A model generated the notes under the pieces. That model was not told the DNA's origin. It saw only the letters and a list, made by a program, of their open reading frames with translations, and did not search any database. The position numbers were made by a program, and so were the translations under genes. A stretch of 64,000 bases of DNA from Nitrospina sp. (GTDB lineage Bacteria > Nitrospinota > Nitrospinia > Nitrospinales > JACRGP01): positions 62,001 through 126,000 of the forward strand of contig JACAVV010000014.1 of assembly GCA_024648695.1 (NCBI GenBank), written 5' to 3'. Each line of letters begins with the position of its first letter. The stretch's first letter is position 1. This document shows positions 9,686 through 40,860 of this stretch, piece after piece.

Positions 9686-12172
9686 TCAAGTTGAAAAAAA
9701 AGAATTAGTGTTATAGGTAACCAACTTTGGTTCATTCCAAGGTGCTTTCCTGGATCTCCATAAGTAGATAGCTATAACCAAAATAGTTGAAAGGGTAATG
9801 ATTAAACCTATACGAAAGGACCAAGGTCTGTACCTGAATTGTACTCTATGTGTTCCCGGTTCCAATAAGATTGCTCGGAATTTATAATTAGCTTGGTAAA
9901 TTTTGACAGAGGTTCCATCGACAGTGGCCTCCCAGCCCGGATAGAATGATTCACTAACAAATAAAAATTTTTTGGAAGATACTTCTACCGTTAAGTCTAA
10001 GTCCCCATAATGGTAATCCAAAACTTTAACAGACCCCAAATTTAAGGTAGCTCCTTGGCCACATGTGAAGCCTTTGGGTGCTTCATCCAAATATAATATA
10101 TCTTTCGGGTGAAACACATTGTCTAAAAAAGCATGGCTCCATTCCTCTTGTTTTAAAATAACCTTACAATCGTTTACCAAAAAAGCTAAAGGATAAACAT
10201 TGAGGTTTTCATAAAGGCTAATGGGTTCTATTTTGAAATCATTTTTTGAATCATTTAAATCTAAATTTTTAGCTATATCAAAACGTTCAATCCCTAAGTT
10301 TTTCAATTTTGGAGAATTTATTTTTTCTCTTGAAAGAATATACTTAATATTACTCATAGATAAAAACTCAAGTTTGTCAGTAAGGGGTTTCATATTGACA
10401 AATTTAAAAATACTTTTATCTCTTTTAATATTAATTACGGTCCTGGCATCAAAATGTTTTATGCCGGGAACAGACCTGGTTTCTAAAGGAACAATAGAAC
10501 CTCTAACAATTTTTCCAAATCGCACTGTTTGAACTAGATTTTGTTTTTCTTGAACTTCTGTTGAATTCAAAATTAATACTCTGAAACCACCGTTATTTTC
10601 TAATAAAAATTTGGAAATCTTGTCGGGGTTTTTGAATTTCTCTGTGGACAAGGTGCCCCAATAGCCAAACGTATAAAAAAATATATCAAGAAAAAAAATG
10701 AAAATGGCTGCAAAATAGAAAATCCACTTAAACCTTGATACTTTATAAAACAGGAATGAAGCCAAACCAAATAATGAGGTGAACATCAGCAGTCGCTTAA
10801 TATTCAAAATATTAGTTTCGGCTTTATTAAATTCAGGAAAACTCCATCCTTTGTTATTAACCCAATCCACCCAATATTTTTGCTGAAAATCAATACATCC
10901 GTAAAGAACCATAAAAATTGCGCTGAAAATAAGAAAATATAGAGCCCATTTTTCAGCTTTTTTATTCTTTTCTTTTACAAAATTTGCATAACAATGCCAT
11001 CCCCATCCTGCCGCAAAACAGAGAAGAATGATGGTTGGCAAAATAAATTTTACGGGATACCTGAATCCAGAGAACCAAGGCAAAAAATTGTACATCAAAT
11101 GATATAAATATGAATCGTTACCCATGGAAATATAAATAGAAAAAACACACACTATTACCCAGGGAATACGTTTCCGCCCGCCTTCAAAAAGAAAAATTAT
11201 AATAAGAAAAAAGGGTATCAGACCTAAATAAAAAGAACCTATCCAATTTTGATTTAAAAACAGATTCTTTTGATCCCATCCGTCACCAAATGGGTCAATT
11301 AGGAAAAACTTTAAAAAGTCTCTAAGTTTAAAAGCCCAAACGGAAGCATTTTTTAAATCCAGGCCTTCTTGGCGCATTGAGAATGAAATTAATTCATACG
11401 TTGGAATTAGCTGAACTGATATCAACCCAAGAAATGAAATCAAAAACACAAAAATAAATTGTAGTCGCTTTTTTAAATTTAATGGAATTGCTATACCCTG
11501 GAAAATATTTGGAATGAGATAGAAAAAAATCAAAAATGGAAAGATTTGATAGCAGGTTTCAATCCCGCCAATAAAAAACATAAGTGAGCCAACACAACCT
11601 GAAAAAATGGCCCATCTCAAATCATTGGTTTGGTTCCCTTTGAAGAAACCAAGAACAATTAGCGATACCCAAACGACCGCGAAAAATGTTGATGGATAGG
11701 TATATATTGATAGCAAATATCCTCCGAACATAAACGAAAGCCCGGAAATAAAAGCCCCACCAATATTGGCACCCACCGTACGTAATAAAATGTAAAGAAA
11801 TGTTCCTCCCAAGGCGAAATGCAAAATAAAAAGGTAATTAAAAACTAAAAAGAAAGGGAGGAACAAATAAAATATATAGAAAGGATAAAAAACCCCGGGT
11901 TGTAGCCTGGCAGCTAACGGGGTTCCAGCCCAGTGGTCCGGGTTCCAAAGAGGAGGTTGAAAATCTTTTACTTGTTGAACCCAGGCATCCAGATAGGGCA
12001 AAAAAAATGAAACTAAATCGGCTCCCGGGAATATGTTTTCAAAATCGGTGAATTTATAAAAATAAACGACAGATAATAAAAAGTATACGAGAAAAAATAA
12101 AACAAACTCTTGGGACCTTGGAAATAAAAAGGAAAAGGAGACCCCCCTTTTATTCAAAGATCTACCTGCCAT
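9686..12172 (-). CDS. YfhO-family multispanning membrane protein
   Basis: This is an 828-residue protein with about 12-14 transmembrane helices in the first ~560 residues, a C-terminal extracytoplasmic domain, and a final helix near 795-815 followed by a basic tail. The P-G-A-D-L near residue 50, W-N-P-D-H-W-A-G-T-P-L near 76-86, and the C-terminal S-E-S-F-Y-P-G-W-E-A-T-V-D-G motif are hallmarks of YfhO-like, GT-C-related proteins. Family members are implicated in glycosylation of surface polymers. I placed the start at an ATG; an in-frame TTG two codons upstream is also possible. The gene is markedly AT-richer than its neighbours, which suggests later acquisition. It starts 18 nt after the prepilin stop. 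Confidence 0.8.
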   Translation of the reverse strand: MAGRSLNKRGVSFSFLFPRSQEFVLFFLVYFLLSVVYFYKFTDFENIFPGADLVSFFLPYLDAWVQQVKDFQPPLWNPDHWAGTPLAARLQPGVFYPFYIFYLFLPFFLVFNYLFILHFALGGTFLYILLRTVGANIGGAFISGLSFMFGGYLLSIYTYPSTFFAVVWVSLIVLGFFKGNQTNDLRWAIFSGCVGSLMFFIGGIETCYQIFPFLIFFYLIPNIFQGIAIPLNLKKRLQFIFVFLISFLGLISVQLIPTYELISFSMRQEGLDLKNASVWAFKLRDFLKFFLIDPFGDGWDQKNLFLNQNWIGSFYLGLIPFFLIIIFLFEGGRKRIPWVIVCVFSIYISMGNDSYLYHLMYNFLPWFSGFRYPVKFILPTIILLCFAAGWGWHCYANFVKEKNKKAEKWALYFLIFSAIFMVLYGCIDFQQKYWVDWVNNKGWSFPEFNKAETNILNIKRLLMFTSLFGLASFLFYKVSRFKWIFYFAAIFIFFLDIFFYTFGYWGTLSTEKFKNPDKISKFLLENNGGFRVLILNSTEVQEKQNLVQTVRFGKIVRGSIVPLETRSVPGIKHFDARTVINIKRDKSIFKFVNMKPLTDKLEFLSMSNIKYILSREKINSPKLKNLGIERFDIAKNLDLNDSKNDFKIEPISLYENLNVYPLAFLVNDCKVILKQEEWSHAFLDNVFHPKDILYLDEAPKGFTCGQGATLNLGSVKVLDYHYGDLDLTVEVSSKKFLFVSESFYPGWEATVDGTSVKIYQANYKFRAILLEPGTHRVQFRYRPWSFRIGLIITLSTILVIAIYLWRSRKAPWNEPKLVTYNTNSFFST

Positions 12173-12190
12173 TCTCAATTAGTTATTAAA

Positions 12191-29492: not shown

Positions 29493-30680
29493 TCACTCCC
29501 GACTTCGTAAATTGGGAACCGTTGCTACGGGAGAACCCGGAAGCACAATATTGGCGAAATCCTTTTCCTTCAGCTTGTATATTTTGAAATAGCTATCCAA
29601 CAAATTCCTGGATTTTTCCACCAATTGAATATTATTTTTTTCCAGGAACAGTTTTTCCGCGATTTTTAAATTTTTAATGGCCTCTCGTCCCTCGCCAACT
29701 TTATTGAAAACCATTCCCAGGCTAAGATAAGCTGGGGCGAAAAGTGGATCAAGGTTGATGGATTTTTGAAACGACTCCAGGGCAGGCTTGATTTTTCCCA
29801 TATTGAGATACAGTTCTCCCAAGGCAAACCGGGTTGGGGCATGGGATGGGCGAATTTTCAAGACCTTGTTGAATTCACTCAGGGCATCCTCAAAAAACTT
29901 CAGTTCCTGATATGCCCAGCCGAGGTTGGAATGCGCCAGATAATCATTCGGGTTCAACTTGACCGCGGTTTCCCATTCCTTGATGGCCTTGTTAATTTGG
30001 TCATTCTGGGCATAAATATTACCCCGGTTGAAATAAGCTTCCGGGTAACGCGGATTCAATTCTATCGCCTTGGAATATTCCTTCAGGGCCTCATTATCCC
30101 GACCCATTTTCCCATAGACAACACCCAGATTATTGTGGGCCACGGCATGCCTGGGTTCCACCGTTATTACTTTTTGAAAATTTTCTACGGCGGTTTTGTA
30201 CTGTCCCAAACTGGAATAGGCGGAACCCAGGTTCAATAATGCTTCAGGATTGGTTTCATCCCGACGCAGGGCCGCTTCCAGAATTTTTACGGCCTCTTCG
30301 CTAAACCCCTGCTCCAGCTTGATCACGGCCAGGCTGATGAGAGTGAGAGGATCGTCGACGTTCAGCACCAGAGCCTGGGTCAATGTCTTTTCCGATCGGT
30401 CCTTTTGTCCCAGGCGAAACTGGGCCACACCCAGATTCCTGAACGCTTCCGGATATTTATTCTTTAACTGAATGGCCTTTTCCAGGTTTTCTACCGCGTT
30501 TTTGTATTCTTTGTTTTCCAGGTAAGCAGTTCCCAGTTCGAAATGGGCTTCCGGATCCTTGGGGGATTTCACAACCTCCGTATGAAAGTGAGCGATTCGT
30601 TGCTCAGGAGAGTTGTCTCCGGAACCACACCCGGATAACAGGAAGAACAGGGAACTGATGAGGGCAAAGATAGCTTGCAT
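29493..30680 (-). CDS. Tetratricopeptide-repeat lipoprotein
   Basis: This 395-residue protein has a lipoprotein signal peptide with lipobox L-L-S-G-C (Cys18), then about nine consecutive TPR units from residue 30 to 350, with repeated patterns like P-E-A-x-x-N-L-G-x-A-x and Y-x-x-A-V-E-N-F-Q-K. It should be a membrane-anchored periplasmic scaffold. Its partner is unknown. It follows nuoN on the minus strand with a 70-nt gap. Confidence 0.85.
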   Translation of the reverse strand: MQAIFALISSLFFLLSGCGSGDNSPEQRIAHFHTEVVKSPKDPEAHFELGTAYLENKEYKNAVENLEKAIQLKNKYPEAFRNLGVAQFRLGQKDRSEKTLTQALVLNVDDPLTLISLAVIKLEQGFSEEAVKILEAALRRDETNPEALLNLGSAYSSLGQYKTAVENFQKVITVEPRHAVAHNNLGVVYGKMGRDNEALKEYSKAIELNPRYPEAYFNRGNIYAQNDQINKAIKEWETAVKLNPNDYLAHSNLGWAYQELKFFEDALSEFNKVLKIRPSHAPTRFALGELYLNMGKIKPALESFQKSINLDPLFAPAYLSLGMVFNKVGEGREAIKNLKIAEKLFLEKNNIQLVEKSRNLLDSYFKIYKLKEKDFANIVLPGSPVATVPNLRSRE

Positions 30681-30750: not shown

Positions 30751-32277
30751 CTAGAATGGTACCGACAATTTGGCAAGTGACATCAACGTGGATGGGAACA
30801 ACCCAAAAACCAAAACGGCCACCATACTGACCATAATGACAGCTCTCATGCCTTTGTTAATTTCTATCGTTTCAGTACTCTCTTCATCATGGAAATACAT
30901 CAACACAATCACTCGCAAATAAAAATAAACGGCGATCATGCTGGCGATCACCGCCAGGATGGCTAACAAATGGTAACCTTCCTGAATGGCGGCAAGAAAC
31001 AGGTACAGCTTGCCGAAAAAACCCGCTGTGGGCGGAATACCGGCCAGGGAAACCATGAACAGGGCCATCGCTCCGGCCAACATGGGATTTCTTTTTGAAA
31101 GTCCTTTCAAACGCAAAATAGAGTTGCCCTCTGAACCCTGTCCTTCCAGTGTTAGAACGATCGCAAATGCCCCCACGTTCATAAACAGGTACACTGCCAG
31201 ATAAAACAGAATGCTGGCCACACCTTCGTGACTGTTGGCGACAATGCCTATCAGCAGGTAACCGGCATGCGCAATACCGGAAAATGCCAGCATGCGTTTG
31301 ATATCCGTTTGAAAAATTGCCGCGGTGTTGCCCACGATCATGGTGATTACTGACACGCCAAACACCACTGGCATCCAGATATACTGTAATTCGTGAAACG
31401 AAACCGAGAACACCCTCGCGATCAATGCAAATGCCGCCGCTTTAGTGGCCACAGACATGAATGCCGTGATCGGAGTGGGGGCTCCCTGATAAACATCTGG
31501 CGTCCAGGAATGAAAGGGCACGGCAGATACCTTAAACGCCAAACCGGCAAACATCAGTCCCACCCCGATATAAACCAGGGTATTGTGACTGTAGGGATTG
31601 CTGTGCAGAAGTTTGGCGATGCCACGAATCTCTGTCGTTCCCGTTCCCACATATACCAGCGCCATACCATAAACCAGGATCGCCGAGGCGAATGCTCCGG
31701 TCAAAAGGTATTTCACTGTGGATTCCTGGGACGCTTTACATTCCCAAGTGAGTTTCTCGCTATCTCCGGGACCTTCGGTTCCGGTACCGTGTTTGGCGGA
31801 AAACCCGCATAAAATATAGAGTGCGATTGAAAAGACTTCCAGGGCTACGAACGCAGTGATCAAGGTTCCGGCTTTGGCCAAAAACATCATGCCTGCCACT
31901 GCCATAAGGACCAGCGTGAAATATTCGGATTTGTTTTCGTTGTCGGATTTTGGGTAACGATAGGAAGCCAGAATGGCAAAAACACCCATCGCCAGTATCA
32001 GCAAATTGAAGGACTGGGAAAAGCGGTCATAGATCAGGGCATTCGAGAATATTTCCGGCTCGGCTCCTAAATGGTCGTGTGGCGCAGACCTCCAAAGCAA
32101 AGCCGAGTAGAGCCAGGCGATTCCCAATCCACCGAGCGCACCATTGCACAAAAACGGACGGTTATCGTAGGTTTTGAATAATCCTAAAATCAATAAGGCA
32201 AAGGCTGTCATCAGGACGATCAATTCGGGCCCTAAAGCCGTCCACTTCATATCGCTGTAATCGATTAAAAATTCCAT
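30751..32277 (-). CDS. nuoN: NADH-quinone oxidoreductase subunit N (complex I)
   Basis: This 508-residue antiporter-like proton-pumping subunit has about 14 helices. It carries the family features A-L-E-V-F-S-I-A-L-Y-I-L near 150, K-Y-L-L-T-G-A-F-A-S near 190, F-K-V-S-A-V-P-F-H-S-W-T-P-D-V-Y-Q-G-A-P-T-P, and K-R-M-L-A-F-S-G-I-A-H-A-G-Y. The conserved Lys and Glu residues of the proton path are therefore present. Chosen start: an ATG with an AAGGAA site 11 nt upstream. No other nuo gene is in the window, and nothing precedes it on this strand for 440 nt, so it appears detached from its usual operon end. Confidence 0.95.
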   Translation of the reverse strand: MEFLIDYSDMKWTALGPELIVLMTAFALLILGLFKTYDNRPFLCNGALGGLGIAWLYSALLWRSAPHDHLGAEPEIFSNALIYDRFSQSFNLLILAMGVFAILASYRYPKSDNENKSEYFTLVLMAVAGMMFLAKAGTLITAFVALEVFSIALYILCGFSAKHGTGTEGPGDSEKLTWECKASQESTVKYLLTGAFASAILVYGMALVYVGTGTTEIRGIAKLLHSNPYSHNTLVYIGVGLMFAGLAFKVSAVPFHSWTPDVYQGAPTPITAFMSVATKAAAFALIARVFSVSFHELQYIWMPVVFGVSVITMIVGNTAAIFQTDIKRMLAFSGIAHAGYLLIGIVANSHEGVASILFYLAVYLFMNVGAFAIVLTLEGQGSEGNSILRLKGLSKRNPMLAGAMALFMVSLAGIPPTAGFFGKLYLFLAAIQEGYHLLAILAVIASMIAVYFYLRVIVLMYFHDEESTETIEINKGMRAVIMVSMVAVLVFGLFPSTLMSLAKLSVPF

Positions 32278-32715
32278 TTCAAAAACAATTCCTTTCGGCC
32301 CGAGACTGGCCGGTCCATAGTTGTGCTTCTCTGGGAATAAAAGATGTTTTGCAGAGTGATTTGTAAAACATTTCCAGCGTTTTTTCAAGGCTGAATTGAA
32401 TTGTCTCCTCCTGGCATGTGGATTGATTTTGAACGAAAAACATGCTTAAAGCTTGTTTTCTTGCAAGAAACTCCCTGAGAATCATCCAGATTGGCATTGA
32501 ATTAAAAGGGCTTCTAAGTACATTGGGGAAGCAGAAGCATTTTCCGAATCCGGTTAAAGAGGGTTAAAGTTCCTATCTTTTCAGTTATAATAGAAAGTGG
32601 GAATCTTTTTAACTTACAGTTTTTCAAGCGCGTATTTTTTGTCATGAAAAATAGTTGCTCAGGTCTTTGAATTCATTCAGTTACCCCTCGTTTCCACCGG
32701 GAGCCTGCTTTTTCC
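32278..32715. other. Divergent promoter region between nuoN and the giant CHAT gene
   Basis: This 438-nt stretch has no supported gene. A possible plus-strand promoter is TTAAAG (32564-32569), 16 bp, TATAAT (32586-32591), about 125 nt before the giant gene. The -10 is perfect and the -35 is weak. Confidence 0.4.
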
Positions 32716-35700
32716 ATGAAATTTTCAAATTTGTTTCTTGTTCTCAGTCTTTTTACTTTTCTATTCGCACCAAATGTATATTCCGCTGACGATTTAAAAG
32801 ACGATCGCATCACCCAGGCCATCCAGGTCACCACCAATCCGGGAGAGGATTTTGCTCCCACCATTTCCCGGGACGGCAAATACCTGATTTATGTCTCCGA
32901 CAAGTCCGGCAATCTTGATTTGTGGCTCAAGTTTCTGGGGCCGGGTAGCCATCCTCCGGACCGGCAACTAACGTTCCACAGCGCGTCGGACAATTCACCG
33001 GAATTCAGTCCTGATGGTAGTAAAGTGGTTTTTGTATCGAACCGGTCGGATCCCAGAGGAGATATTTATGTTCTTGAACTGGGTTCCTTTTCGCTTTCCA
33101 CCGAAGAGAAATCGGAGGAAAAGACCAAGGGCGGCCTCAGTTTTTTGGGCTTGTCCTCACTGCAGAGTAAGGATAGCGAAGCCCAGCGTGCCAGCGGTTT
33201 GACCCGCCTGAGCCAAGCGGGGCCGGAAGACCTGGATCCCACGTGGGACCCTTCGGGACAGGCGGTTTATTATTCATCTCATAAACCCGGTCAGGCCGAG
33301 AAAAAAATTTATCGCGTCGCTTTGTCAGGCGGATCGGAAACCCAAGTGACCACACAGGACGGGGTCAGTCCCGCCGTATCTCCGGACGGCCGCTATTTGG
33401 CATTTATTTCCAAAAAGGAGGACGCATCGGGAAACATCTGGCTGAAAGACCTTTCCAGCGGTCAGTTGACGGCTTTGCACAAGGGACCGGAAATCGAGCT
33501 GTCTCCCCACTGGTCTGAGGATGGTCGGTATATTTATTTTACCCGCTACCAGGATGACACCAATTTCGACCAGGATTTAACTATTGAAGACCGACCCAGT
33601 ATCTGGAAAGTGGGTCTGAATGGTTCGGTGCCAACCAAGTTCCTGCAATTGACGGACAGTTCCACGTATGACCTGTTACCGGAAATCCATGGCGACAATA
33701 TTTATTTCACGTCCCATCGCCGAACCGGGATTGATATTTTCCGGCTTCCCAAGGAAGGCGAGCTCCCCGCCCTGACCGATTATGGGCAAGCCCTGCAATT
33801 GGCCAGTGACCTGTGTCCTGATGAAAAGGCCTCCTACACCTGTGTGTTGATTTACAAAGATATCCTGAATGAATTCAAGAATGAAGAAGACCTGGCGCGC
33901 ATTCGCTATAAATTGTCCAAAACCTTTTTCAATCTGGGCAATGCCTTTTCCGCCAAGTTCCAGTATGGCCGCATTTCTAAAGAACACCCAGACGATCCGG
34001 TTTATAACGGACTCGCTGAAATTGAAATCCTTATTCTGGAAGTGGAGGAGACCCGAAAGGAAGGGATCACTCTGTATAGAAAACGGGTGGAGCAGGCTTT
34101 GTCCGAAATCGAAGCAATAGCGGCCAAATACAGGAGTCAGCCCAGGGTTTTGGCCCGTGCGTTCCTGGAAAAAGGAAACTTTAATTTTGAACTGGACCGG
34201 CAGGATCTGGCACTGGGGTTTTACAAAAAGGTCATTCAGGAATACGCTCGTCAGCGGGAAACAGCGGCAGAAGCGGCTTTTTCGAGAAGTAAAATTTACA
34301 CCACCATTGGCGACACCGATAAGGTGGTTGAAGCTTTCGTAGACGTGGTGCGCAATTATTATGATGTGAAACTCTGGACCGCTAAAGCGATCAGCGAAAT
34401 TCTGGCTCTGTTCGAAAAGGAAGCCTCAGTCGAAAAGAAGGTTTCCAACCTTCAAAACCTGACCCGGGAATACAAATCTTTACCCATTTTGGCCGCGGCG
34501 GTGCAGAACCGGATCGGTCAGTTGTATTATGAAGGCGGGGAAAATCTTCTCGCTAAAGAGGCGTATCAGAAAACCATCAGCAACTTTGCGCAGGCGCCTT
34601 TGGAAAAATTCAACGCCCTCTTTGCTTTGGCTCAAATCTATGCGGAAGAGGAACAGTTCGAAAAAAGTCTGGATCTTTACCAGCAGGTGGTGCAGACGCC
34701 ACAGGGCTTCGACGAAAAATTACGTTTGGCCACCTTGGGCTATATTCGTAAATCCCTGAAAAAAGGCAAATGGGAAATCAATGTAGGCGAAGTGAAGCTG
34801 GCCTATAAAACGTTTCTCAAGCTGATCGACTTCAGTCCGCAAAATGTGGAAGCACATCGCGGTTATGTGCAATCGTCTGCCATGCTGAAGAAGGTGGATA
34901 AGGCGATCGATTTTTACAAATCCCGGCTCCAGCAAAACCCTAAATCTGCAGTGGACCATTATTCGTTAGGTCTGGCTTATACTTACCTTTCGCCTCCCGG
35001 ACTGGACATGGCGGAGAAGGAGATCAACCAGGCATTGGTCGTCAACTCCCAGGAAACTTATTACCATCAAACCCTAGGTTGGGTGTTCGAGCAGAAAGAA
35101 CGTTTGCATCCGGGCAAGGAATACCTGGAAAAAGCTTTGCAGGAATATTCCACCGCCCTCGCTTTGAATGACGAAAACATCAGCCCGGAAAACGAGGCCG
35201 ATCTGTTTCTGAACCTCGGTAACGGCAACCACCTGTTGCGCAATCATCTGGAAGCTCGCCATTATTATCAGAAACGGAAAAAGAGCAAAGTCGAATTTGT
35301 CAACGCGGACCGGGAAATTATTTATTACCAACGCTTCGGCGAAAGTGCCTTTAAAGCCGGGTACCCGGATGAAGCGGTGGAGCATTTTAAAGAGGCTCTG
35401 GCGCTTCATAATAGAAAGAAGGAACCCGACCTTAAACGCATTGCGGAAATGAACGATCGTATCGCATTGGCTTACCAGGACAGCAACCAGTATGCTAAAG
35501 CGGTCGAGTATTTTTCCAAGACTCTGGAACTGCATCGAAAAACTGGCAACACGGAATCGCTTTCGAAAGCTTTGCGCAACATTGCGAATAACCTGTATTC
35601 CCTCAATGAGCGCCGTGGGCGCAAGGACACTCAATCGCTGAACATGGCGCTCAGCCATTATTTTCAGTCGATAGAAAATCTCGAAAAATATGGAGTCGTT

Positions 35701-38700
35701 CAACAGGAGGTCAAAAAAGAATCCAACGCTCTGGTCAACATCAATGTGGAAACGGGGCTGGACGAAAATGCCTCCCAAGCGGCCCGGGGATTCAATAAAG
35801 AGGGTGAGGAAAAGCTCATCTTCAATTATGTCGGGAAGATTTATGGCGACTTCGGTGAATATGACCGCGCCATCGATTATTTTCAGAAGAAATTGGCCCT
35901 GGTTCCGGACAATCTCAATCCGGAAAAAGACATTCCTGTCATTTTGGAAAAAGCTATCCTGCTCAACCAGATCGGGAATTTCCACTTTCAGGGGGGCGAG
36001 TACGACCGGAGTGGAGAGTATTTTAAGGAGTCCTACGCGCTCAGTAAATCCATCAACAACCGGCAAGGGGTTGCCGTCAATGCGGCGAATCTGGGCCGAC
36101 TCCTGTTGACCAAATCGGAAATGATTCCGCGTGAACAGTTCCGTAGTTCTATTCAAGACACCTTGAATTTTCTTGAGGAAGCGCTGGACATCATTGTGCA
36201 AGCCAAAAACTTTGCCAGTCCGGAATATGCTGTGTACCTGAATAACTATCTCGGCATCTTTTATCACTATATGGGAGTTCATTTTTCAGATAACGGGTCC
36301 GGCCAATCTAGAGGACCCACGACCGGCCCGACGAAGGAGCAGTTTCTTGCGGCTCTTGGATCTCTACAGCAGGAATTCGGTTACTTTCAAAAGTCCATTG
36401 CTTATTTCAACTCTGCTCTCGAACTGGTTCACGCCAATATTGAGGGTCCATTGGCCAAACGATTGGAAACCGCGCTTCAGCAAAACCTCAGGCTCACCCA
36501 TTCCAAAGCGGACCTCAAAAACCAGAAACCGAAGAAGTTTGCCGATACCGGTGGTTTGAATTCCAAATGGCAATTCAAGTATCTGGAGTTTTTAGAGGTT
36601 CCGGAGTCCAGCAAATTGAGCGTGCTGAAAAATGCAGAGGCTGAATTGTCGCGCTTGCCTTATGGATTGCTTCCCAATACCAGCACCTCGCGGGTGATGA
36701 TGGAAGAGTTGTATTTTTCATTGGCCCAACAACTTTTTAAGGAAAAAAAATTCAGCGAAGCCTTTTACTATTCTGAAAGAGGATTGCAACAGATTCTCAT
36801 CTCCTACAGACAGAATATGGAACTGAAGTTCAAGGATGAAGTTCGCGTCGGATACTACGATGAATTTATGGAATATCCGGCGCAAATCAGGGATCTGTCG
36901 AAACAGATAGCCGTGGGTGCGGGCAATTTTTCCAATCGGTCCGAGATTGATGGCCTGCTTGAGGAGTATCAGGACCTCATTTCAGTGGTTAAGGAAGAGG
37001 ATCCGGTTTTTTCCCAATTGTTCTCTCCAAGCATTCCGGAGTTGAGCCAGGTGCGGGCACTTTTGCGGCCTGGAGAAGTGATCGTCAAATATCAAAAAGT
37101 GTACGACCGGATTCTGGTTTGGGTGGTTTCCCGGGACCGTGTGTTTGGTGGAACCATTTTACCCGATCCACAATTGTTTGGTCTTATTTCCAGGATCACA
37201 CACAGTGATTCGGTGGTCCAAGGCCAGGATATCGAAGCTTTGTCCAATGCCTTGATCACGCCCCTGGGAGGCACGCTTGGGCAATCGACCTCGGTCTATC
37301 TGTTGGCGAACGGTGGTCTGGAATTTTTACCGTGGAGCGCTTTGAAGCTGAATGGGAAAGCACTGATAGATCACTATGCGATCACTCACGTTTCTTCGGT
37401 GGCGCAGTTCATCAATTCGCACCGCAAGAAGAATCTTTATAATTCTCGACTGCTGTCGGTGGAGCTTTCGGAGGCCGATGCCAAGTCCATATCTCAGCCC
37501 TTTGCGTCTTCCATAAACCTTTCGGAAGATAAAAGCACACAAAAGGAATTCATGAAATCGATGGGGCAGTATGCCGTGGTCCATATAGAGAGCAAAGCCC
37601 AATTGGGCCGGTTGGGGTCGGGCAACTCCTACATCAATCTCACTCAGGCAAGAAACCGTTTCGAGCGCATGACTCTGGAAGATCTCTTTGAAAACCCAGT
37701 TGAGTCCCATTTCATTGCCCTCAACCATGTGGAGTATGAAAAGATGCCCGACCTGGATGTGTCGCCCACAGCGCCCATGGTGCATGCCCTGGACTACATG
37801 GGGTACCCCGGCATTCTCATGAAGTTCGGACCCAAAAACGAGGCCACGCATCAGGAGTTTCTGAAACTGTTTTACCAGAATTTTCGTAAAGGCAATCCGA
37901 CCGAGGCCCTGCGTATTGCACAACTGGCGCTTCGGCAGAAAAACCCGGGTTCGTATGCCTGGACCCGTTATCGCTTTTTTGGTTTTCCGGGAATGAACGA
38001 GCAGGAAAAAAACATTTTTGCGAAAACCCATTTTAAGGAAAATGTCAAAAAAGGCATCAAGGCCTTTTCCAAAAAGAAATGGAACACGGCTATCAGCTAT
38101 TTTGAAAAGGCCCTGGTTCTGATCGATTTGATGGAGAACCAAAATCAGGCTCCTCAGCTTTACAAAGTTCTCGCACAAGCGGCCTACAATCAGGAGGACT
38201 ACCAAAAGGCAATTAAGTATCAAAAGGAGTTGGTTGCATTGGCAGACCAAAAGGGCGATCCCGAGGAACTGGCAGGAACGATTTATTTTCTGGGCATCCT
38301 GTATTCCCGGGCGGAAGAGTTTCCCAAAGCTGTGGAAAAACTGGAACTGGCCCTGGATATTTTTCAGGAATATGAAATTCTCGACAAGCTGGCGGAAAGC
38401 TACAGTGTCCTGGGAATCGTAAAAGAAAATGCCCTGGACTACGACAAAGCTCTGGACGCCTTCAACGCTTCCCTGAAAATTAACAAGGAAATTGGAGAAG
38501 ATTTAAACCGTGGCAGGGAGTTGCGTCGAATCGGGCGTATTCATTACCTGCGCCTGAACAATTACCCCAAGGCACGCGATTATTTTACGCAGGCCTACAA
38601 TTTGTTCAAGGAACTCGATCAGGTCGATCAGGTGGTTGAGACCTTGCTGGAGTTGGGTCTGGTCGCGGAGAAACAGAGTTTGTTTCCGGAAGCTTTGAAA

Positions 38701-40860
38701 TTTTATGCCGAAGCGCAGGCCCTTGCAGAATCCAGCGACTTTCCTGCTTCGGTTTCCAAGGCCTTGCTTTATCAGGCCAACACCTATTGGTTTCAAGGGG
38801 ACTACCAGAACGCTTTCAAACGCCAGACACAATCATTAAACATCGCTGAAGAATTAAAAGATAAACGCCAGCAGACGTTCATCTACAACACCCTTGGCCT
38901 GATTTACTGGACCCTCAACGATTCAGTACGCGCTCTGGAGAATCTGAATCGAAGCCTGGATCTTGCCAGGGAAATCCGTTCTCCTCTCGACATGGCATCG
39001 GCCTACAACAACATCGGACTGGTGTACCGCAAGGATAAGGATTATCCGCGCTCCATTGAGTTTTTTCAAAAGGCGCTCGACAAGGATGTTGAACTGAAAT
39101 CCAAGTGGGGACAAGGTTACACCCACCGCAACCTGGGTATCAGCTATTTGCGCATGAAACGCCTGGACCAGGCTCAGGAGCATCTCAATAAGGCGGTGGC
39201 GTTCAGTACTGAAATCGGCAACCAGACCAATCTCGTAAAAGCCAAGCTGGAACTCGGTAATTTGGCAATGGAACGTGGTCAGTGGGATTCTGCGATCGGG
39301 GTTTTTCAGGAAACCCAGGCCCTGGCCACCCAATACAACATCAAGGAGGTCATTTGGCGGGCGCACCGTGGCAATGGGTTTTGCCTGAGAAAACTGAACC
39401 GACTCAGTGAGGCCGCGCAATCTTACCGCACTGCGGTACAGGTAGTCGATGAGTTACGCGCGGCAATCAAGGTAGAGGAATTTCAGAACGGCTTTCTCAC
39501 CGACAAGCAGGATGTGTATAAGGAGCTGATCCTTCTCCTGCTCGACCAGGGAAAAGTTGAGGAAGCTTTTAATTTCGCCGAACGGGCCAAATCCAGAAGT
39601 TTCATCGATCTGCTGGGCAATCAAAAGATCAGCTTGAAGAACGATATCAGCCAACAGCTTTACGACAAGCTGATTGGGCAAAAACGCCGAATCCGCCTGG
39701 CAGAAGTTGAATTGGCCAAGGCGGAAGGCGACGAAAATAAAAAACGCCTGCGAACTGAGCTGATTTCCCAACGCAATGGCTACCGCGACCTGTTAATTCA
39801 GGCCAAAGCACAAAGTCCGCAGATTTCCAGCTTCGTCACGGTAGAGGCGATCACTCTTACGGAATTATACAAAATTCTTGAAAACGACGTTTCCCTGGTC
39901 GAGTACTTGATAACCGACGAAGAATTGATTGGCTGGGTGATCAGCCAGGGCCGCATACAGGTCGTGCGCACGCCGGTTAAGGAAAAAGATCTGATCGTCT
40001 TGATCGAAGATTACCGCAAACGGATTCAACAACTGGCACCGGTGGAGGATCAATCCAAAAAGTTGTATCAGTTGGTGATTCAACCGCTTGAACGGTATTT
40101 TGCATCGACCCGTGTGCTTGGGATCATCCCGCACGGTCACCTGCATTACGTGTCGTTTTCCTCTCTGCGGGATCAGGAATCTTATCTGGTGGAAAAGCAT
40201 CCCCTGTTTTATTCCCCAAGCGCATCGGTGTTGCAGTTCACCTTTAACCGCAAATTTGAAAAAAAAGGTAAAATAAAAGTTTTGGCACTGGGCAATCCGG
40301 ATTTGCAGGATTTTAATTACGACCTGCCCCTCGCCGAACTGGAAGCCAAATCGATCAAATGGGATTTTCCCGAAATCGATTTGTTCACTCGCAAAGAGGC
40401 TACCGAGAGTTGGCTTCAGGAAAATATCGGAAAATATCAAATCATTCACATCGCCTCGCATGGGGAGTTTGATCCGGTGAACCCGTTGTTTTCCTCGTTA
40501 AAGCTCACTGCCGATGAGTTTAACGACGGCAGTTTTGAAGTCAACGAAGTGTTTTCGCTGGACATCAAAGCCGACCTCGTGACCTTGAGCGCGTGCCAGA
40601 CCGGACTTGGAGAAATTTCGGGCGGTGATGAACTGGTGGGACTGAACCGGGCTTTCATTTACGCGGGCACGCATGCCCTGGTGTCATCCTTGTGGCGCGT
40701 AAGCGATATTTCAACGGCTGTTCTCATCAAACACTTTTACAGAAATTACACGAGTGCAAATAAATCAGAAAGCCTGCGTAAAGCCCAACTGCTGGTGAAA
40801 CGTTTGTATCCCCATCCCTCGTACTGGGCCGGGTTCAACCTGACAGGGGATTACCGGTAG
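32716..40860 (+). CDS. Giant exported TolB-propeller/TPR protein with two CHAT domains
   Basis: This protein has 2714 residues. Signal peptide 1-24 (A-P-N-V-Y-S-A). Residues ~35-360 hold TolB/PD40 propeller repeats such as S-P-D-G-S-K-V-V-F-V-S and S-P-D-G-R-Y-L-A-F-I-S. TPR units fill ~390-1250. Residues ~1448-1755 look like a CHAT domain with lost chemistry: H-I-E-S-K has K1627 where the catalytic His belongs, and A-L-N-H-V has V1672 in place of Cys. A second TPR array covers ~1762-2240. The C-terminal CHAT domain (~2381-2714) is intact, with H2582 in H-I-A-S-H-G-E and C2627 in S-A-C-Q-T-G, ending in Y-W-A-G-F. CHAT domains are caspase-like cysteine proteases. Export makes this one unusual. 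Its target is unknown and no partner gene is adjacent. Confidence 0.9.
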   Translation: MKFSNLFLVLSLFTFLFAPNVYSADDLKDDRITQAIQVTTNPGEDFAPTISRDGKYLIYVSDKSGNLDLWLKFLGPGSHPPDRQLTFHSASDNSPEFSPDGSKVVFVSNRSDPRGDIYVLELGSFSLSTEEKSEEKTKGGLSFLGLSSLQSKDSEAQRASGLTRLSQAGPEDLDPTWDPSGQAVYYSSHKPGQAEKKIYRVALSGGSETQVTTQDGVSPAVSPDGRYLAFISKKEDASGNIWLKDLSSGQLTALHKGPEIELSPHWSEDGRYIYFTRYQDDTNFDQDLTIEDRPSIWKVGLNGSVPTKFLQLTDSSTYDLLPEIHGDNIYFTSHRRTGIDIFRLPKEGELPALTDYGQALQLASDLCPDEKASYTCVLIYKDILNEFKNEEDLARIRYKLSKTFFNLGNAFSAKFQYGRISKEHPDDPVYNGLAEIEILILEVEETRKEGITLYRKRVEQALSEIEAIAAKYRSQPRVLARAFLEKGNFNFELDRQDLALGFYKKVIQEYARQRETAAEAAFSRSKIYTTIGDTDKVVEAFVDVVRNYYDVKLWTAKAISEILALFEKEASVEKKVSNLQNLTREYKSLPILAAAVQNRIGQLYYEGGENLLAKEAYQKTISNFAQAPLEKFNALFALAQIYAEEEQFEKSLDLYQQVVQTPQGFDEKLRLATLGYIRKSLKKGKWEINVGEVKLAYKTFLKLIDFSPQNVEAHRGYVQSSAMLKKVDKAIDFYKSRLQQNPKSAVDHYSLGLAYTYLSPPGLDMAEKEINQALVVNSQETYYHQTLGWVFEQKERLHPGKEYLEKALQEYSTALALNDENISPENEADLFLNLGNGNHLLRNHLEARHYYQKRKKSKVEFVNADREIIYYQRFGESAFKAGYPDEAVEHFKEALALHNRKKEPDLKRIAEMNDRIALAYQDSNQYAKAVEYFSKTLELHRKTGNTESLSKALRNIANNLYSLNERRGRKDTQSLNMALSHYFQSIENLEKYGVVQQEVKKESNALVNINVETGLDENASQAARGFNKEGEEKLIFNYVGKIYGDFGEYDRAIDYFQKKLALVPDNLNPEKDIPVILEKAILLNQIGNFHFQGGEYDRSGEYFKESYALSKSINNRQGVAVNAANLGRLLLTKSEMIPREQFRSSIQDTLNFLEEALDIIVQAKNFASPEYAVYLNNYLGIFYHYMGVHFSDNGSGQSRGPTTGPTKEQFLAALGSLQQEFGYFQKSIAYFNSALELVHANIEGPLAKRLETALQQNLRLTHSKADLKNQKPKKFADTGGLNSKWQFKYLEFLEVPESSKLSVLKNAEAELSRLPYGLLPNTSTSRVMMEELYFSLAQQLFKEKKFSEAFYYSERGLQQILISYRQNMELKFKDEVRVGYYDEFMEYPAQIRDLSKQIAVGAGNFSNRSEIDGLLEEYQDLISVVKEEDPVFSQLFSPSIPELSQVRALLRPGEVIVKYQKVYDRILVWVVSRDRVFGGTILPDPQLFGLISRITHSDSVVQGQDIEALSNALITPLGGTLGQSTSVYLLANGGLEFLPWSALKLNGKALIDHYAITHVSSVAQFINSHRKKNLYNSRLLSVELSEADAKSISQPFASSINLSEDKSTQKEFMKSMGQYAVVHIESKAQLGRLGSGNSYINLTQARNRFERMTLEDLFENPVESHFIALNHVEYEKMPDLDVSPTAPMVHALDYMGYPGILMKFGPKNEATHQEFLKLFYQNFRKGNPTEALRIAQLALRQKNPGSYAWTRYRFFGFPGMNEQEKNIFAKTHFKENVKKGIKAFSKKKWNTAISYFEKALVLIDLMENQNQAPQLYKVLAQAAYNQEDYQKAIKYQKELVALADQKGDPEELAGTIYFLGILYSRAEEFPKAVEKLELALDIFQEYEILDKLAESYSVLGIVKENALDYDKALDAFNASLKINKEIGEDLNRGRELRRIGRIHYLRLNNYPKARDYFTQAYNLFKELDQVDQVVETLLELGLVAEKQSLFPEALKFYAEAQALAESSDFPASVSKALLYQANTYWFQGDYQNAFKRQTQSLNIAEELKDKRQQTFIYNTLGLIYWTLNDSVRALENLNRSLDLAREIRSPLDMASAYNNIGLVYRKDKDYPRSIEFFQKALDKDVELKSKWGQGYTHRNLGISYLRMKRLDQAQEHLNKAVAFSTEIGNQTNLVKAKLELGNLAMERGQWDSAIGVFQETQALATQYNIKEVIWRAHRGNGFCLRKLNRLSEAAQSYRTAVQVVDELRAAIKVEEFQNGFLTDKQDVYKELILLLLDQGKVEEAFNFAERAKSRSFIDLLGNQKISLKNDISQQLYDKLIGQKRRIRLAEVELAKAEGDENKKRLRTELISQRNGYRDLLIQAKAQSPQISSFVTVEAITLTELYKILENDVSLVEYLITDEELIGWVISQGRIQVVRTPVKEKDLIVLIEDYRKRIQQLAPVEDQSKKLYQLVIQPLERYFASTRVLGIIPHGHLHYVSFSSLRDQESYLVEKHPLFYSPSASVLQFTFNRKFEKKGKIKVLALGNPDLQDFNYDLPLAELEAKSIKWDFPEIDLFTRKEATESWLQENIGKYQIIHIASHGEFDPVNPLFSSLKLTADEFNDGSFEVNEVFSLDIKADLVTLSACQTGLGEISGGDELVGLNRAFIYAGTHALVSSLWRVSDISTAVLIKHFYRNYTSANKSESLRKAQLLVKRLYPHPSYWAGFNLTGDYR

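Follow-up and report, generated by a model that had tools for sequence, protein, structure and literature searches.

A predicted exported giant protein with a dyad-less and an intact CHAT unit in Nitrospinota and four further phyla

Introduction

The CHAT pocket of Craspase changes shape when non-self RNA binds in the TPR/linker region, and the distance within its His-Cys pair falls from ~7 to ~3 angstrom (PMC9729208); the protease region of Csx29 consists of a pseudo-caspase lobe and an active caspase lobe, like that of separase (PMC10028731). A dead half is therefore normal inside one CHAT unit, and what is unusual in the giant protein described here is that a whole further unit is dead. Csx29/Craspase shares with the giant a run of TPRs followed by a CHAT domain with a His-Cys dyad, but is cytoplasmic, CRISPR-bound and built with one CHAT unit of ~700 aa in which the pseudo-caspase is a single lobe. 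Eukaryotic separase likewise places a long helical repeat ahead of a caspase-like protease, but it is intracellular, regulated by securin, and has no propeller, signal peptide or complete second CHAT unit.

DdvA (PDB 8rot, 8rw5) is a membrane-associated bacterial protein of ~900 residues that matches structural models of two parts of the giant (CHAT1 and TPR2-CHAT2, below); it is an anti-sigma factor by PDB title and is compared here by title and fold match alone, and we found no DdvA paper in the open-access literature. The genome that encodes the giant also encodes another exported TPR-CHAT protein (L057, 1871 aa), in which a two-partner-secretion (TPS) domain replaces the propeller and the one CHAT lies outside the clade of the giant's intact CHAT. 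Because of this protein, and because DdvA is titled transmembrane in the PDB, an exported CHAT as such is already known, and the statement in an earlier note on this DNA that CHAT proteases act inside cells was too strong. PorE/PG1058 of the type IX secretion system is reportedly an exported protein with TPRs and a propeller; set against the giant by name only, it apparently has no CHAT. Descriptions of the giant's architecture, or of a CHAT in Nitrospina, were not found in the open-access literature, a scope outside which most subscription journals and all preprints lay.

Results

Domain architecture and export

The window, meaning the whole stretch of 64,000 nucleotides that was analysed, comes from a 4.2 Mb genome in 56 contigs. 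It contains an open reading frame at 32716..40860 (+) that translates into 2714 aa (~300 kDa) without internal stops. Pfam searches returned five PD40 stretches near the N-terminus (E 4.8e-39), many TPRs and two CHAT stretches, which gives the order Sec signal peptide, propeller, TPRs, CHAT1 (no His/Cys), TPRs, CHAT2 (H2582/C2627):

30751..32388 (-), nuoN, the divergent neighbour (NCBIfam TIGR01770, 433 bits; synteny)
32716..32787 (+), Sec signal peptide, residues 1-24, cleavage by eye at ~VYSA|DD
32803..33780 (+), PD40/TolB-like beta-propeller, residues ~30-355 (Pfam PD40; TIGR02800 below cut-off)
33781..36702 (+), first TPR region (TPR1), residues ~356-1329 (Pfam TPR families)
36703..38010 (+), dead CHAT (CHAT1), helical entry from residue 1330 and core ~1440-1765 (Pfam, AlphaFold2, Foldseek, alignment)
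38038..39705 (+), second TPR superhelix (TPR2), residues 1775-2330 (Pfam TPR_12, model)
39868..40857 (+), intact CHAT (CHAT2), residues ~2385-2714 with H2582 and C2627 (Pfam E 3.8e-60, alignment)

Translation and Pfam thus bear out the two TPR-CHAT units described in the earlier note; K1627, V1672, H2582 and C2627 stand where it had placed them, and the motifs FLPWSAL and RYRFFGF are present. Its TolB-like propeller was right in kind, since the domain is of the PD40/TolB-like type, but the score against the TolB equivalog TIGR02800 (108.8 bits, cut-off 343) places it outside TolB of the Tol-Pal system; by this comparison the propeller is TolB-like, but not TolB.

The N-terminus (MKFSNLFLVLSLFTFLFAPNVYSA) has the appearance of a classical Sec signal, and signal-like N-termini are carried by the Nitrospinota homologues in which the N-terminus is present and by nearly all relatives in other phyla, some of them with a signal of lipoprotein type (all read by eye). 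With a signal peptide conserved in homologues, the export that had been proposed from the single sequence is retained. A Cys367/Cys376 pair in TPR1 is invariant in the Nitrospinota alignment columns; we rejected the idea that it proves an oxidising compartment for the family at large, since its invariance is confined to Nitrospinota and members elsewhere contain as many as 27 Cys. An assembly artefact was also rejected, because the same architecture recurs in dozens of genomes.

Distribution across genomes

A homologue search with the single CHAT1 sequence gave no match, and a search with an alignment of residues 1700-1975 as query succeeded, finding 31 loci in named genome contigs, 30 of them titled Nitrospinota, Nitrospinae, Nitrospinaceae, Nitrospinia or Nitrospina and one a Nitrospirae MAG. 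Within Nitrospinota, 37 genomes from the order to which the window belongs have a strong CHAT1 match. A genome from another family of the class (G043) has a copy that has diverged further and is truncated where its contig stops, and that copy shows the same pattern of dead and live domains. In genus g8 (family f3) the giant occurs in none of eight genomes, four of which are at least 94% complete; this lineage-wide absence might be a pointer to its function.

For other phyla the query was a profile (A4) built from TPR2 together with CHAT2. Full-length relatives of 2500-2900 residues were found in four further phyla (those of G393, G097, G380 and G203), with an A4 match in 40 of the 82 genomes of the G380 phylum. 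The domains of these relatives follow one another as in the giant (propeller, TPR, central domain, TPR, CHAT); in some members (G393, G203 and part of the phylum of G097) the profile no longer recognises a CHAT in the 420-650 residues at the centre, which occupy the same place. The two-domain architecture reported in the earlier note was therefore recovered in 37 genomes and four more phyla, and is not special to the window.

CHAT1 keeps the fold and lacks the dyad

Searched alone against Pfam PF12770, CHAT1 scored 55.5 bits (E 7.6e-15, cut-off 24) over approximately residues 1506-1752. An AlphaFold2 model of the unit, computed with 22 Nitrospinota sequences, reached a mean pLDDT of 90.9 and a pTM of 0.91, with helices that start at residue ~1330 and a CHAT core from ~1440. 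We then compared this model with the PDB by Foldseek: Craspase TPR-CHAT ranked first (E 1.2e-12) and the next molecules were DdvA (E 1.2e-10) and separase (E 5e-9), while a search of solved structures by CHAT1 sequence gave no match. By family score and model, the central domain has a CHAT fold, as had been read from its motifs at ~1448-1755.

The residue at the His position (1627) is P, K, R, L or T and that at the Cys position (1672) is V, I or A among the 22 Nitrospinota sequences, none of which has either His or Cys of the dyad. Among members outside Nitrospinota that could be aligned by profile, the Cys is present in 0/29 and the His in 1/28, and over all aligned members in 0/51 and 1/50, so that CHAT1 lacks the dyad of an active protease; these counts cover the members in which the profile detects a CHAT1, and so not G393, G203 and part of the phylum of G097.

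CHAT2 is a predicted active protease

CHAT2 (residues 2446-2712) matched PF12770 at 204 bits (E 3.8e-60, cut-off 24) over profile positions 3-289, a full-length match that includes the His-Cys dyad H2582/C2627 and places the domain in the family. Both residues are invariant in the 21 Nitrospinota sequences that cover them (21/21) and present in 34/34 members from other phyla, and entropy around them is near 0.06. From this conservation CHAT2 is a predicted active protease. In a model of TPR2-CHAT2 the TPR part is mostly above pLDDT 80, while CHAT2 is mostly of low confidence and was left out of the dyad assessment; Foldseek matched the model mainly to TPR superhelices, and its hits included separase and DdvA. 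Sequence searches of solved structures gave only E 0.025-0.05 for CHAT2, and nothing for the CHAT2 profile.

Phylogeny and selection

We inferred a maximum-likelihood tree under LG+C20+F+G4 from 77 CHAT domains, 26 of them from outside the giant family. The giant-family CHAT2s form one clade against the 26 other CHATs (99/93), and the giant-family CHAT1s all lie on one side of a branch (100/99), with the exact place of CHAT1 unsure because its branches are long. The simplest reading would be one two-CHAT ancestor that preceded the split of the sampled phyla's versions, by descent or later transfer. On sequence grounds we regard the giant as an old multi-phylum family, not a local oddity.

Estimated by NG86 on close pairs, dN/dS is 0.08-0.23 for CHAT1 vs 0.03-0.14 for CHAT2, values that are rough because dS is near or above 1 in several pairs; the CHAT1 range argues that this domain is under purifying selection and hence maintained. 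Relatives of the same architecture in several phyla likewise indicate that the dead copy has been kept under selection, and the pair of a dead and an intact CHAT, with the dead copy retained, holds beyond the window in which it was noticed. Across the order CHAT1 is the least conserved part of the protein (32-47% identity, vs 65-74% for CHAT2). Its windows at 1627 and 1672 rank 152 and 132 of 318 in conservation, which is average variability for CHAT1, and its peaks fall on the LPWSAL motif and on the GFPGM junction that leads into TPR2. Constraint that lies there and away from the old active site speaks for a structural or coupling role and against a retained substrate cleft.

Genomic neighbourhood

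In the Nitrospinota loci the giant is divergent from nuoN wherever the contig extends that far, and beyond nuoN there usually follow a gene for a TPR protein and one for a D-aminoacyl-tRNA deacylase. The arrangement looks like vertical inheritance rather than an operon, and nuoN, whose position is fixed across the order, is probably not a functional partner. Clustering of neighbours found no gene shared by Nitrospinota and other-phyla neighbourhoods, with only seven other-phyla loci having flanks. The scanned neighbours in the window encode NuoN, the TPR protein, the D-aminoacyl-tRNA deacylase, a VTT protein, an aldo-keto reductase and an MsbA-like ABC transporter; the adjacent gRAMP (Cas7-11) and Csx30 of a type III-E Craspase system are not among them, and none of the ten neighbours scanned with Pfam is a gasdermin gene.

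In most of the Nitrospinota loci that were inspected, a homologue of the TPR-repeat protein between nuoN and the deacylase gene (29493-30680, -) occupies the corresponding position. Downstream of the giant, 13 loci carry a conserved ~785-aa protein (L034:1566-3923, -, and homologues) with GATase1_like and weak MG2 matches, preceded by a conserved ~270-aa gene; it does not adjoin the giant in the window. An 830-aa YfhO-like membrane protein is encoded at 9686-12178 (-) of the window in an AT-rich stretch (GC 0.335 vs ~0.48 around) and adjoins pilin-like and type II/IV secretion genes.

Discussion

Proposed mechanism and alternatives

With a probability of roughly 0.5, we propose that the giant is a Sec-exported (periplasmic or surface) autoinhibited cysteine protease of the separase/Craspase kind, in which the dead CHAT acts as a structural or allosteric hinge. 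By analogy with Craspase and Csx29, the propeller and TPR1 would form a sensor half that binds a partner or ligand; CHAT1, placed between the two TPR superhelices, would be a hinge without catalysis, structural and allosteric in function, through which a binding event in the N-terminal half is relayed to TPR2 and so to the catalytic CHAT2; CHAT2 may then cleave a single envelope or secreted substrate, or a few of them, outside the cytoplasm. The activity and autoinhibition of CHAT2, the hinge role of CHAT1 and the nature of any ligand or substrate are inferred. In support of this reading, the closest folds, Craspase TPR-CHAT and separase, are both proteases controlled by helical repeats. A proteolytic switch, which the earlier note had suggested, is plausible. 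We hold more tentatively, at somewhat below even odds, that the family is a hitherto undescribed class of exported giant proteases that arose once and is spread over several phyla. In it a complete CHAT unit would have been duplicated, and one copy would have lost its dyad before the versions in the sampled phyla diverged and been kept ever since to regulate an envelope switch of the separase kind.

If the proposal is true, regulated proteolysis of the separase/Craspase type would move out of the cytoplasm. The family would also offer a clean natural experiment, in which a whole protease domain is dead in every sampled lineage yet kept, beside a strictly conserved live one. As the family spans several largely uncultured phyla including Nitrospinota, identifying what it cleaves would give access to a new pathway of signalling in the envelope.

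Substrate binding is common among dead protease domains, and CHAT1 could on that general precedent of pseudo-enzymes be a docking module whose old cleft binds the substrate peptide and hands it to CHAT2, a role for the dead copy that the earlier note had raised. The retained fold and the purifying selection on CHAT1 are what such a module would show; the old active-site segments, however, are no better conserved than the domain average (152 and 132 of 318), with the LPW motif and the CHAT1-TPR2 junction conserved instead, and the residues that replace the dyad vary among other-phyla members. These patterns weaken docking, and we consider it unlikely. Somewhat less probable again is that the whole giant is a non-proteolytic scaffold, both CHATs being binding modules and the TPRs and propeller building a large envelope assembly: a giant repeat protein with a TolB-like propeller, inherited vertically beside nuoN with no recurring substrate neighbour, would suit that role, as would the anti-sigma factor title of the CHAT-like DdvA, but a pure scaffold has no need for H2582 and C2627, which are kept over five phyla.

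CHAT proteases do serve conflict systems, as in Craspase, and one CHAT protein of the same genome carries a secretion domain, which together would fit a secreted, surface-displayed conflict or defence protease directed at neighbours, predators or phages. The giant is, however, single-copy, fixed in chromosomal position and vertically inherited, and its CHAT2 is 65-74% identical across the order, unlike fast-evolving conflict genes, so we rate this explanation as quite improbable.

Other CHAT proteins

The second exported CHAT protein of the genome, L057 (contig C33:24467-25270, -), consists of a TPS domain, TPRs and a C-terminal CHAT, and its sequence matched Craspase weakly among solved structures (E 0.28). 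A 955-aa TPR-CHAT paralogue (L056, contig C53:68453-69331, +) shows no clear sign of export and has a CHAT that does not group with the giant clade; the same search returned only a chance match. In another phylum, G636:C38:30001-37733 holds three TPR-CHAT-like ORFs in tandem, of 998, 871 and 844 aa.
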